Shown: in pieces, positions 20,042 through 23,473 of the stretch
Layout of the letters: every line of letters starts with the position of its first letter
How positions within the stretch are numbered: position 1 is the first letter of the stretch
Assembly (NCBI GenBank): GCA_015484845.1
Contig: WFUT01000136.1
Coordinates: 1-39,437, forward strand
Origin: Desulfobulbaceae bacterium
Lineage (GTDB): Bacteria; Desulfobacterota; Desulfobulbia; Desulfobulbales; Desulfobulbaceae
Direction: 5' to 3'
DNA length: 39,437 nucleotides
Translations under genes and position numbers: made by a program
The notes under the pieces: generated by a model
The model's input: only the letters and a program-made list of their open reading frames with translations
The model's database searches: none
What the model was told of the DNA's origin: nothing

Positions 20042-20272
20042 ATGAAGGAGCTGATAGCCTTCATTGCCGCCCGGCTGGTGGATCATCCCGACGCCGTGGA
20101 CACGAGCCTGCACGAGGAAGAGGAGTGCATCACCGTGGAGCTGCGCGTGGCCAAGGACGATCTCGGCAAGGTGATCGGCAAACAGGGACGGACGGCCCGG
20201 GCCATGCGGACCGTGCTCGCCGCAGCGGCCGCCAGGGAGGAGAAGCGTTCGCGCCTTGAAATCGTCGAGTAG
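20042..20272 (+). CDS. khpA: KH-domain RNA-binding protein KhpA
   Basis: 76-residue single KH domain. The nucleic-acid-binding GxxG loop is GKQG (46-49) inside LGKVIGKQGRTARAMRTVL. The family binds structured RNA, often with KhpB/Jag, and commonly sits between rpsP and rimM as here. Its ATG directly follows the rpsP stop, so translation probably relies on reinitiation. Confidence 0.95.
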   Translation: MKELIAFIAARLVDHPDAVDTSLHEEEECITVELRVAKDDLGKVIGKQGRTARAMRTVLAAAAAREEKRSRLEIVE

Positions 20273-20274
20273 GC

Positions 20275-20790
20275 ATGGATGATTTCGTTCTCCTTGGCAA
20301 GGTGACACGGGCGCACGGCATCAGGGGCGAGATCAAGGTCTACCCCTATTCCGGCGATCCCGGTAATTTCAAAAAGTACAGGACGCTCTATCTCTCCTCC
20401 GGGGCCGACACGGCCAGGCGGGCCTTTGTCTGCCAGGGGGCCAGGATCCAGGGGAACCAGGTCCTGCTCCGGCTGGAGGGGTGTGGCGACCGCGACCAGG
20501 CCCAGCGCCTGGTCGGCAGGGAGGTCTGGCTGCGGCGCGAGGATCTGCCGGAGCTGGACGAGGACGAGTTCTACCTGCACGAGCTCGAGGGCAGGCTGGT
20601 GGTGACCAACCAGGGAGACGAGGTCGGCCGGGTGACCGGCATCCTGGCCACGGGCGCCCATGATATCCTGGTGGTGCGGGACGGAACCCGCGAACATCTT
20701 GTTCCCCTGGTTGCCGAGTTCCTGGTCCGGATCGAAGACGACAGGGTGGTGCTGGACCTGCCGCCGGGTCTGCTCGAGATAAACGACTGA
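20275..20790 (+). CDS. rimM: 16S rRNA maturation factor RimM
   Basis: 171 residues. The N-terminal domain starts with LLGKVTRAHGIRGEIKVYPYS, the family signature. The C-terminal PRC-barrel holds FYLHELEGRLVVTNQGDEVGRVTGIL and ends with VVLDLPPGLLEIND. It helps the 30S head mature through S19. It lies two bases after khpA. Confidence 0.97.
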   Translation: MDDFVLLGKVTRAHGIRGEIKVYPYSGDPGNFKKYRTLYLSSGADTARRAFVCQGARIQGNQVLLRLEGCGDRDQAQRLVGREVWLRREDLPELDEDEFYLHELEGRLVVTNQGDEVGRVTGILATGAHDILVVRDGTREHLVPLVAEFLVRIEDDRVVLDLPPGLLEIND

Positions 20791-20816: not shown

Positions 20817-21578
20817 ATGCGCTTTGATGTCCTGACCATCTTTCCCGACCTGTTCACCTCGGTGCTGCAGGAGGGCATCCTGCGGCGCGCCCTGGCACGG
20901 GAACTGATCTCGGTCCGGCTGCATGACATCCGCGATTACGCCACCGACCGGCACCGCATGACCGACGACCGTCCCTTTGGCGGCGGCGAGGGCATGGTCA
21001 TGAAGCCCGAACCGCTGGCTGCCTGCCTGCGGGCGGCCCTGGGCGGGGAAGCGGTGGGGCGGGTGATCCTGCTTTCGCCCCGTGGCCGGCCCTACAGCCA
21101 GCAGGTGGCCCGCGAGTATGCCGGGCTGTCCCGCCTGGTCCTGGTCTGTGGCCGCTACGAGGGCGTGGACGAGCGGTTCCGGCGCCACTACGTGGACGAG
21201 GAGCTCTCCATCGGCGACTATATCCTCACCGGTGGCGAGCTGGGGGCCATGGTGGTCATCGACTCCGTGACCCGGCTGCTGCCCGGGGTGCTGGGTTGCC
21301 GGGACTCGGCCGCCAATGACACCTTCAGCCGCGGCCTGCTCAAGCACGGACAGTATACCCGGCCGCGTGTCTTCGAGGGCAGCGGGGTGCCGGAGGTCCT
21401 GCTCTCCGGTGACCATGCCGCCATCCAGCGCTACCGGTTCCTGGAATCGGTGCGGGAGACCCTGCAGCGGCGGCCGTCCCTGCTGGCCACGGTGCAGTTC
21501 ACGGCCGAGGAGAAGAAACTGCTTGCCAGGGAAGGACTGCTGGAGCAGGTCCAGGTGGCGGCGGCACCGGAGAAATGA
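20817..21578 (+). CDS. trmD: tRNA (guanine-37-N1)-methyltransferase
   Basis: SPOUT-class enzyme of 253 residues that methylates G37 to prevent frameshifting. It begins MRFDVLTIFPDLFTSVL and carries DDRPFGGGEGMVMKPEP, the knot segment LVCGRYEGVDERFR and SIGDYILTGGELGAMVVIDSVTRLLPGVLG. The stop overlaps the next start in an ATGA junction. Confidence 0.98.
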   Translation: MRFDVLTIFPDLFTSVLQEGILRRALARELISVRLHDIRDYATDRHRMTDDRPFGGGEGMVMKPEPLAACLRAALGGEAVGRVILLSPRGRPYSQQVAREYAGLSRLVLVCGRYEGVDERFRRHYVDEELSIGDYILTGGELGAMVVIDSVTRLLPGVLGCRDSAANDTFSRGLLKHGQYTRPRVFEGSGVPEVLLSGDHAAIQRYRFLESVRETLQRRPSLLATVQFTAEEKKLLAREGLLEQVQVAAAPEK

Positions 21579-22147
21579 GGGAAGCAAGACTCGATGTGGC
21601 CCTGGTCCACTACCCGGTGGTCAACCGCAGGGGCGAGACCATCGGCTCGGCGATCACCAACCTGGACCTGCACGATATCGCCAGGGCAGGGCGGACCTAC
21701 GGCGTGGGCACCTACTGGGTGGTGACGCCCTTTGCCGAGCAGCGGGATCTTGCCGCGCGGATCATCGGCCACTGGACAGAGGGGTATGGCGCCAGGGCCA
21801 ACCCGGACCGCGGCAGCGCCCTGGCCATTATCCGGATCTGCAGCGCCCTGGACGAGGCCATTGCCGGCATGAGCGCCGACTGCGGCCGGCGGCCGCTGGT
21901 GGTGGCGACCTCGGCCCGGTGCAAAGGCGAGCGGCTGGATTTCCGGGACCTGCGGCAGCGGCTGGCCGGGGGGTGGCCGGTACTGCTCCTCTTCGGCACC
22001 GCCTGGGGCCTGGCCCCGGAGCTGCTCGAACGGGTGGACGCGACCCTGCCGGCCATCAGCGGTCCGGGTGGGTACAACCATCTCTCGGTCCGCTCCGCAG
22101 CGGCCATTGTCCTGGACCGGCTTCTGGCCGGCCCGGACAGGGTGTGA
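21575..22147 (+). CDS. RNA methyltransferase, SAM_MT_RNA / COG4752 family
   Basis: 190 residues, a SPOUT-like protein. The N-terminus VALVHYPVVNRRGETIGSAITNLDLHDIARAGRTYGVGTYWVVTP is the family signature, and LLFGTAWGLAPELLE with GGYNHLSVRSAAAIVLDRLL forms the C-terminal knot. It lies between trmD and rplS as in other deltaproteobacteria. The RNA target is not known to me. Start overlaps trmD by four bases. Confidence 0.9.
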   Translation: MREARLDVALVHYPVVNRRGETIGSAITNLDLHDIARAGRTYGVGTYWVVTPFAEQRDLAARIIGHWTEGYGARANPDRGSALAIIRICSALDEAIAGMSADCGRRPLVVATSARCKGERLDFRDLRQRLAGGWPVLLLFGTAWGLAPELLERVDATLPAISGPGGYNHLSVRSAAAIVLDRLLAGPDRV

Positions 22148-22370
22148 AGAGGAGGTTGCCGGCCCATGCGCCAGGGGCAGGAAAGGGTCCGGGAAGGTCC
22201 CTGCCCGCGCAACAACAGGGGCGGCGGTATTTTGGGTTGCGGCCGGAACTCCCGGCCAGGTCATGCAAGCATATTGACAACAAACGGCATATGCCGATCC
22301 GGATGGAGTGGAGGCATCCATCGGGTAGCGGAACAAGCGTGTCTTTTCCGTACCCGTGAATTGAGAGACA

Positions 22371-22724
22371 ATGGCTATGAATATTATCGACAGGATTGAC
22401 CAGGAGCAGATGCGCTTTGACCATCCCGACTTTCGTGCCGGCGACACGGTCAAGGTCCATGTCCGCATCATCGAGGGCAACAAGGAGCGTGTCCAGATCT
22501 TCCAGGGCGTTGTGCTCAAGCGCAAGCGCGGCAAGATGAATGCCTCGTTTACGGTGCGCAAGATCTCGCACGGGGTCGGCGTGGAGAAGACCTTTGCCCT
22601 GCATTCGCCCCGGATCGAGAAGATCGAGGTGGTTTCCCTGGGCCGGGTTCGCCGTTCCAGGCTCTACTACCTGCGCGAACGCCGTGGCAAGGCCGCCCGT
22701 ATCCGGGAGCGGCGCGTGCGCTGA
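22371..22724 (+). CDS. rplS: Ribosomal protein bL19
   Basis: 117 residues. Diagnostic blocks are [60 protein letters not shown] and [19 protein letters not shown]. The ATG at 22371 and another at 22377 are both possible. A 223-base spacer precedes it, with TTGACA (22274-22279) and a perfect CGGCATATGCCG palindrome (22285-22296), so rplS may have an extra promoter or a structured leader. Confidence 0.97.
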
Positions 22725-22749: not shown

Positions 22750-22799
22750 AGAGGCACATGGTTCTCCGATGAACAGGGACCCGTGTGCCTCTTTTTCTT
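22750..22799 (+). terminator. Strong intrinsic terminator of rplS, overlapping the rnhB start
   Basis: A 12-base stem (22750-22761 with 22781-22792, one G-U pair) closes a 19-base loop and is followed by a T-rich tract to 22799. The only canonical rnhB start codon (22769) lies inside the loop. Confidence 0.85.
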
Positions 22800-23473
22800 T
22801 TGTCACCGCCGCTGGCCGGCGGGATGACACCTTCCTCTATGAAAAGGATCTCGCCCGGCAGGGATTTTGCCATATCGCCGGCCTGGACGAGGCCGGCCGT
22901 GGTCCGCTCGCCGGCCCGGTGGTGGCCGCCTGCGTGATCCTGCCCCTGGAGTGCGACTACCGCCGCTTCCGCGATTCCAAGCAGCTCAGCGCCCGCCAGC
23001 GCCAGGAACTCCATGGCTATCTTTGTTCCTGCGGCGCCCGGATCGGGGTCTCGGTGGTGGATGCCGCCGAGATCGACCGGCTCAACATCCTCCAGGCCTC
23101 CCTGCAGGCCATGAAGCGCGCGGCCGAGACCTGCCTGGATGGCGGCCTGCCGGACTTTCTCCTGGTGGATGGCAAGTTCACCGTGCCCATGGCCCTGCCG
23201 CAGCTGGCCCTGGTCAAGGGTGAATCCAGGAGCGCCTCCATTGCCGCGGCCTCCATTGTTGCCAAGGAGACCAGGGACCGGCTGATGGAGGAGTACCATT
23301 CCCGGTTCCCTGTCTACAACTTCCTGCGCAACAAGGGCTATCCCACCCGGGAGCACCGGCAGGCCCTGGCCGAGCACGGGCCCTGCCCGATCCACCGCCG
23401 GACCTTCAAGGGAGTGCGCGAGTTCTTTGGCCATGACCGCCCCGTGCCGCCGCAGCAGCAGGGGTTGTGGTGA
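22769..23473 (+). CDS. rnhB: Ribonuclease HII
   Basis: Removes RNA from RNA-DNA hybrids, including single ribonucleotides. It has 234 residues. The active site begins with AGLDEAGRGPLAGPVVAA (Asp40, Glu41) and continues with LLVDGKF (Asp134) and SASIAAASIVAKETRD. The first ~35 residues are not conserved. ATG at 22769 is the only ATG, GTG or TTG in frame between the rplS stop and the first motif, yet it sits in the rplS terminator loop without a ribosome site. Transcription into the gene therefore requires reading through that terminator or a promoter not seen. Followed seven bases later by yraN. Confidence 0.95.
   Translation: MNRDPCASFSFVTAAGRRDDTFLYEKDLARQGFCHIAGLDEAGRGPLAGPVVAACVILPLECDYRRFRDSKQLSARQRQELHGYLCSCGARIGVSVVDAAEIDRLNILQASLQAMKRAAETCLDGGLPDFLLVDGKFTVPMALPQLALVKGESRSASIAAASIVAKETRDRLMEEYHSRFPVYNFLRNKGYPTREHRQALAEHGPCPIHRRTFKGVREFFGHDRPVPPQQQGLW

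Follow-up and report, generated by a model that had tools for sequence, protein, structure and literature searches.

Attenuation of the E. coli pyrBI and rph-pyrE genes involves a terminator that overlaps translated sequence and is prevented from folding by a closely following ribosome. In both cases, translation of an upstream ORF proceeds into the hairpin, with pausing that depends on UTP as the signal. Expression of dnaG is kept low in the macromolecular synthesis operon of the same species. A bifunctional element acting as a terminator and as a sequestrator of the ribosome-binding site (RBS) was reportedly proposed by Naville and Gautheret. According to the description of rpsU-T1-dnaG-rpoD, the conserved Rho-independent terminator T1 of E. 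coli is located between rpsU and dnaG, allows readthrough, and controls the abundance of the rpoD transcript (PMC7863352). Dual riboswitch platforms have been described in which a terminator is located near the ORF, the ribosome site is included in the hairpin, and translation could stay inhibited upon failed termination (PMC2258182). Concerted transcriptional and translational attenuation was presented in 2010 as never experimentally demonstrated, in a study that indicated 18 E. coli candidates located less than 15 nt from the start codon (PMC2965389).

The junction between rplS and rnhB analyzed here resembles rpsU-T1-dnaG-rpoD in its succession of a ribosomal-protein gene, a terminator for which readthrough is predicted, and a replication gene. 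T1, as described, is a 31-nt terminator located between genes, whereas the start codon is enclosed and both the 3' arm and the T-tract are coding at the rplS-rnhB junction (PMC7863352). The riboswitch platforms, as reported, carry the ribosome site on the 3' side, with folding controlled by an aptamer (PMC2258182), whereas the loop of the rnhB hairpin holds the start codon, its 5' arm carries the GAGG motif, and a search of the junction with Rfam at the gathering score revealed neither an aptamer nor a ligand sensor. The concept of the bifunctional terminator and RBS sequestrator is shared by the rplS-rnhB hairpin, and rnhB is absent from the main text of the corresponding study (PMC2965389). 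A Streptococcus sRNA survey names rnhB and rplS, at unrelated places (PMC2765633). No account of the rplS-rnhB junction was found in the open-licence literature searched, in which a start codon in the loop, a coding T-tract, and conservation without a sensor appear to be undescribed. Translation of an upstream ORF and UTP-dependent pausing, which characterize pyrBI and rph-pyrE, would both be hypothetical at the rplS-rnhB junction.

The window, i.e. the entire stretch of 39,437 nucleotides that was analyzed, corresponds to contig 136 out of 233 in a genome of 3.38 Mb, for which two congeners (G002 and G001) are included among the relatives. The gene order is rimM, trmD, an RNA methyltransferase gene (PF09936), rplS, rnhB, and a UPF0102 gene, with tmk also located downstream. 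The rplS gene, encoding ribosomal protein L19 (plus strand, 22371-22724; Pfam PF01245, E 7e-49; NCBIfam TIGR01024), has its stop at 22724, and rnhB, encoding ribonuclease HII, follows on the same strand (22769-23473; Pfam PF01351, E 5e-34, the domain covering residues 37-214). The SAM-dependent RNA methyltransferase (PF09936) is encoded at 21575-22147, between trmD and rplS, and is separated from the latter gene by a gap of 223 bases. Searches of the window with Rfam at gathering scores matched a distant tRNA alone and no known RNA family at the hairpin described below.

A 12-base stem, a 19-base loop, and a T-tract had been predicted at the rplS-rnhB junction, and all three were read directly from the plus strand at the expected positions. 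The 5' arm (AGAGGCACATGG, 22750-22761) lies in the untranslated stretch following rplS, contains GAGG (22751-22754), and displays compensatory changes with the 3' arm. The latter (CCGTGTGCCTCT, 22781-22792) encodes rnhB residues 5-8, and one of the 12 pairs is G-U. The loop (22762-22780) is long for an intrinsic terminator, and predicted inner pairs leave an apical portion of 8 nt, which surrounds the start codon. The T-tract (TTTTCTTTT, 22793-22801) encodes residues 9-11, in agreement with the original assignment of residues 8-11 (S-F-S-F, 22790-22801) to this region. These four residues are written TCT TTT TCT TTT, a choice with a probability of 1.6e-4 at the codon usage of the window (TCT, 3.7% of Ser codons; TTT, 35% of Phe codons), as tabulated from 26 ORFs, two of which (minus strand, 20083-20697 and 21431-22561) overlap known genes of the plus strand and are probably false. 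An 81-nt stretch had a folding energy of -30.3 kcal/mol (z -2.81), equaled by 2 of 200 shuffles, and a 56-nt stretch around the hairpin had a folding energy of -26.7 kcal/mol. The hairpin was missed by a simple terminator scan because the loop limit of the scan was 8 nt. The G+C-rich 12-bp stem immediately followed by TTTTCTTTT has the organization of an intrinsic terminator, the T-tract being weak in relatives of genus g14. The start codon in the loop and GAGG in the stem correspond to a dual attenuator, in which translation signals of the controlled gene (ribosome site or start) are overlapped by a terminator.

The rnhB ATG was the only one among the 1,115 ATG of both strands of the window to be both enclosed by an equally strong stem and followed by a 10-base stretch with 7 or more T. 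Twenty terminator-like sites were detected in 271 kb of the source genome (about 8%, including the window). These sites contained five start codons of open frames of at least 80 codons, two of which, those of rnhB and of an 82-aa ORF (L182:1822), were in the loop, the others being located in the arms. The 82-aa ORF, which has no Pfam match and lies behind a longer ORF, was rejected as spurious, and rnhB alone among the 20 sites is a recognized gene with its start in the loop. For comparison, 400 kb of genome G087 contained 40 terminator-like sites and six start codons, two of them in the loop, the frames being taken as found.

All but one of the 57 relatives of a first set, and 66 of 73 genomes of the family, yielded an rnhB gene. 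At the 56 first loci, rplS was present in 53 cases, and the rnhB motif was located 85 to 451 nt past the rplS stop in 52 of the 53. The family comparison comprised 65 loci from the 66 rnhB-bearing genomes, the fragment in G089 being left out. Enclosure of the start codon was tested at 63 of them, following exclusion of L060 and L078, which have no canonical start in range, and at 20 usable loci from 21 genomes outside the family (L056 does not have the motif). For each locus, we tested the ATG closest to a fixed distance from the motif or else GTG, or else TTG, a rule under which L055 and L013 were assessed at starts different from those in their hairpins. The start-enclosing stem was superior to that of shuffled flanks (p ≤ 0.05) at 26 of the 63 unselected family loci versus none of the 20 loci from the other families of the order, related genomes being treated as independent in counts and shuffles. 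The number of family loci at p ≤ 0.01 was 17 of 63 for loops of up to 40 nt. With the earlier limit of 30 nt, which was raised because g14 loops had been seen to be longer, 26 of 63 loci were also obtained at p ≤ 0.05, but 14 at p ≤ 0.01. The comparison of relatives, by which the overlap was to be judged, cuts both ways: relatives in seven genera have it, whereas no significant start-enclosing stem was detected at 37 of the 63 family loci and at any of the 20 loci from other families.

Twenty-three hairpins of the form GAGG...start...CCTC, chosen by eye, were assembled in alignment A1, with three rows from g1, one from g3, six from g8, one from g10, two from g11, four from g13, and six from g14. 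Pairing was observed for 84.7% of the cells. Double-sided changes were present at 8 of the 12 pairs, a number reached by 9 of 500 shuffles, and the covariation score was 0.359 versus 0.193 ± 0.024 for shuffles (0 of 500 as high), the best slid register reaching 0.206. These figures and the proportion of rows at p ≤ 0.05 (20 of 23) apply to a chosen set containing register faults in the 5' arm of L061 and at the start codon of L059; the unselected proportion is that of the 63 family loci. Compensated arms are exemplified by L007 (GAGGTACA/TGTACCTC) and L009 (GAGGGATAT/ATATCCCTC) in comparison with the window (GAGGCACA/TGTGCCTC). RNAalifold recovered the outer seven pairs unaided. Taken individually, the g11 hairpins of L006 and L008 did not reach significance (p 0.13 and 0.15). 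The four-fold-degenerate third base of the residue-7 codon, in the 3' arm, was invariably C in the 23 aligned relatives, while the first base was G in 15, C in four, and A in four, with changes mostly tracked by the non-coding 5' arm. Since the third base is invariant while the first base varies and is mostly compensated, selection at the RNA level is indicated, and the T-rich S-F-S-F codons, used against the codon preference of the window, point the same way. Comparison of the relatives establishes that the hairpin is under selection as an RNA structure and is conserved in part of the family, and this conservation makes plain coincidence unlikely.

Model R1, with which 23 genomes were scanned, gave E values below 1e-7 at rnhB only (65 candidates scored per genome), these 23 matches being the sequences from which the model was built. 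Eight weaker matches were obtained (E 1e-5 to 1e-3), of which that of G004 is the L011 hairpin by position and the second one of G057 is the same palindrome on the opposite strand. A repeat or mobile element as the origin of the hairpin is unsupported, as R1 finds no second strong copy in the 23 genomes. A chance origin is ruled out by the covariation, the uniqueness among the ATG codons of the window, and the difference in start enclosure between the family and the other families.

The ATG at 22769-22771 had been identified as the sole canonical start in frame with rnhB upstream from its first motif, and this proved correct, as the interval from the rplS stop to the DEAGRG motif contains no other in-frame ATG, GTG, or TTG. 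The same position is occupied by ATG in 21, GTG in one, and TTG in one of the 23 aligned relatives. No stop interrupts the frame between this codon and the motif in any of the 23, the distance being 117 nt in 20, 111 nt in two, and 120 nt in one, and the N-terminal peptide M-N-R-D-P-C-A-S-F recurs in variants. Since both the frame and the class of start codon are kept, rnhB very likely does begin at the loop codon. Initiation further down, at a non-canonical codon, would leave the N-terminal stretch untranslated; the RNase HII domain does begin only at residue 37, and the loop ATG of the terminator-like hairpins of L014 and L060 is one base out of the rnhB frame, but the open frame, the retained start codons, and the recurrent peptide make such a downstream start highly improbable.

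The original prediction also stated that readthrough mRNA would present the start codon in a hairpin without a ribosome site. The start codon is indeed in the hairpin; a site exists, although GAGG is located 14 nt before the rnhB ATG and within the stem. The duplex of this motif with the anti-Shine-Dalgarno (SD) sequence has an energy of -5.8 kcal/mol, its unpaired probability is 0.00, and it is the only SD-like GAGG. A poorly placed SD is not peculiar to rnhB in this region since the matches of rimM, trmD, and rplS, which belong to the same operon, are weaker still (-2.5 to -2.8); those of the downstream UPF0102 gene (-6.4) and tmk (-11.0) are better. Among the 23 aligned hairpins, the start codon was predicted to be mostly unpaired (P ≥ 0.7) in 19 and the GAGG-like site to be paired in all 23.

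GAGG sits 3 nt from the ATG (22758) of a putative mini-ORF (plus strand, 22758-22772; ATG GTT CTC CGA TGA), the stop of which overlaps the rnhB start (ATGA). An ORF ending in an ATGA or GTGA overlap with the rnhB start is present at nine of nine hairpin-bearing loci of g1 and g8, the shortest reading comprising 4 or 5 codons. Overlapping ORFs with ATG starts were detected at 20 of the 63 family loci versus 6.8 (sd 2.2) in shuffles, and at 25 versus 15.3 (sd 2.8) if GTG and TTG starts were also counted, both expectations taking the family loci as unrelated. The ATGG of the 5' arm is fixed in nine of nine g1 and g8 rows and several of its partners no longer pair, as if the ATG of the mini-ORF mattered in itself. 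The overlap is a lead hinting at ribosome-driven antitermination or coupling. Inspection of the mini-ORF revealed no run of regulatory codons of the kind found in leader peptides. No upstream sensor shared between genera supports the suggested tie to antitermination, as the stretch preceding the hairpin in the alignment showed no conservation from one genus to another. A ribosomal-protein leader was not recognized either, with no Rfam match at the gathering score and a predicted consensus structure consisting of the stem alone.

The reading that we favor, with a probability of roughly 0.64, is that the intrinsic terminator of the rimM-trmD-methyltransferase-rplS genes has merged with the translation start of rnhB in part of the family, which would throttle RNase HII twice. 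RNA polymerase leaving rplS would mostly halt at 22793-22801, and the minority of readthrough events would yield rnhB mRNA in which the stem sequesters GAGG and nothing but the start codon is exposed, in the loop. One small hairpin would thus probably limit both the making and the reading of the rnhB message, and RNase HII would be held low relative to L19 at two levels through a single element. If a ribosome reached the start codon or the mini-ORF ahead of synthesis of the 3' arm, it would keep the hairpin from closing and enable both readthrough and translation. Output would then depend on whether ribosomes load faster than the hairpin folds, a ligand or a sensor being unnecessary. The competition between terminator folding and rnhB expression that had been anticipated is a fair inference from the overlap, the very likely real start, and the compensatory conservation. 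The observation at the origin of this work is confirmed and its interpretation partly supported. It is unlikely, if conceivable, that the hairpin operates as a sensor-less antitermination switch, in which a ribosome on the 5' arm, at the mini-ORF or the start, keeps the terminator open. If so, the event that starts translation of RNase HII would also permit synthesis of its mRNA, and the supply of RNase HII would follow the supply of free ribosomes and the coupling between transcription and translation, circumstances in which R-loops and ribonucleotide problems could also change.

The hairpin might be nothing other than the terminator of rplS, the genes having been pushed together and rnhB tolerating an overlap of no regulatory meaning. 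Terminator-like hairpins located wholly inside the rnhB ORF (L024, L029, L033, and L034) or just before its ATG (L052) are compatible with such compaction, as is genome G027, which also agrees with the favored reading and where rnhB is about 8 kb from rplS, the rnhB start has no significant hairpin (p 0.22), and a different hairpin with a T-tract follows rplS (by eye). However, compaction is opposed by the predicted accessibility of the start codon in 19 of the 23 hairpins and pairing of the GAGG-like site in all 23, and by L008, L009, and L065, where extra sequence separates rplS from the hairpin and the latter remains at rnhB. Retention of the stem in g14 despite a poor T-tract (4-7 T of 10 at six loci) and a different start-enclosing hairpin at 7 of 21 g7 loci also speak against it. 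We consider compaction alone to be rather unlikely.

The g14 loci, together with L018, which has 5 T, also bear on the relative importance of the two proposed activities: the hairpin is kept with a poor T-tract, and therefore termination is not its sole role there. Control of rnhB initiation, by a buried SD and a start codon in the loop, could accordingly be the main role of the hairpin, with termination being secondary, and the seven g7 loci with an interrupted T-tract and L040, which has none, point in the same direction. Such a primarily translational hairpin is quite improbable: the T-tract is strong in g1, g8, and g13 (6-9 T of 10 at 13 loci), and in the window it is maintained against codon usage and no other terminator was detected between rplS and rnhB by the simple scan and by eye. 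The favored reading is itself weakened by the separation of rplS from the hairpin in L008, L009, and L065, by the non-significant g11 hairpins, and by the length of the 19-nt loop. Finally, rnhB could be served by an unmapped promoter, which would count against the favored reading; a simple promoter scan of the plus strand of the rplS-rnhB junction revealed none.

Terminators and start codons are usually annotated separately, whereas a single selected hairpin provides both here, within coding sequence and in several genera. If it works as proposed, the junction would be a naturally replicated case of joint attenuation of transcription and translation without a ligand, and a simple system for measuring how terminator folding competes with the loading of ribosomes. 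For annotation, it calls for caution, as it would be a mistake to set the rnhB start downstream from the terminator.

Other arrangements were observed at divergent junctions. The g7 loci concerned (L035, L064, L066, L069, L072, L073, and L074) have a GCATGG/CCATGC hairpin enclosing the rnhB start (p ≤ 0.05 at six of the seven) and, in all seven, an ORF with an ATGA overlap onto the start. Among four g7 junctions examined in full, some seem to have a separate hairpin after rplS, and the g7 arrangement would fit a translational role better. At L040 (G013), the rnhB ATG is in the 4-nt loop of an 18-position stem. The family thus retains start-enclosing hairpins of more than one type at rnhB, and termination is not the full explanation in all branches. 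Four loci (L024, L029, L033, and L034) have a 10-11-bp stem followed, after one or two bases, by six T. This terminator-like element lies a short way past the rplS stop and entirely within the rnhB coding sequence, an alternative way of embedding a terminator in this gene. The hairpin of L052 immediately precedes the ATG (by eye). In L014 (G024) and L060 (G091), the loop ATG is shifted from the rnhB frame by one base, identically in both. Within the range used, L060 is devoid of canonical in-frame starts and L014 offers only a TTG, in the 3' arm. The stop of the loop ORF overlaps an in-frame rnhB ATT in both (ATTAA and ATTGA, by eye), making an AUU start through coupling or a +1 frameshift possible.

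A second rnhB-like match with 48% identity, at G011:C103:8476-9003, may be a contamination or a paralogue. Extra sequence is present between the hairpin and rnhB at L011. The extra rplS-rnhB sequence of L009 and L038 opens near-identically (GTGTCTGTCCA and GTGCCTGTCCA) and closes in a near inverted copy, and that of L011 looks related in its inner part (by eye); the three are perhaps a small mobile repeat.
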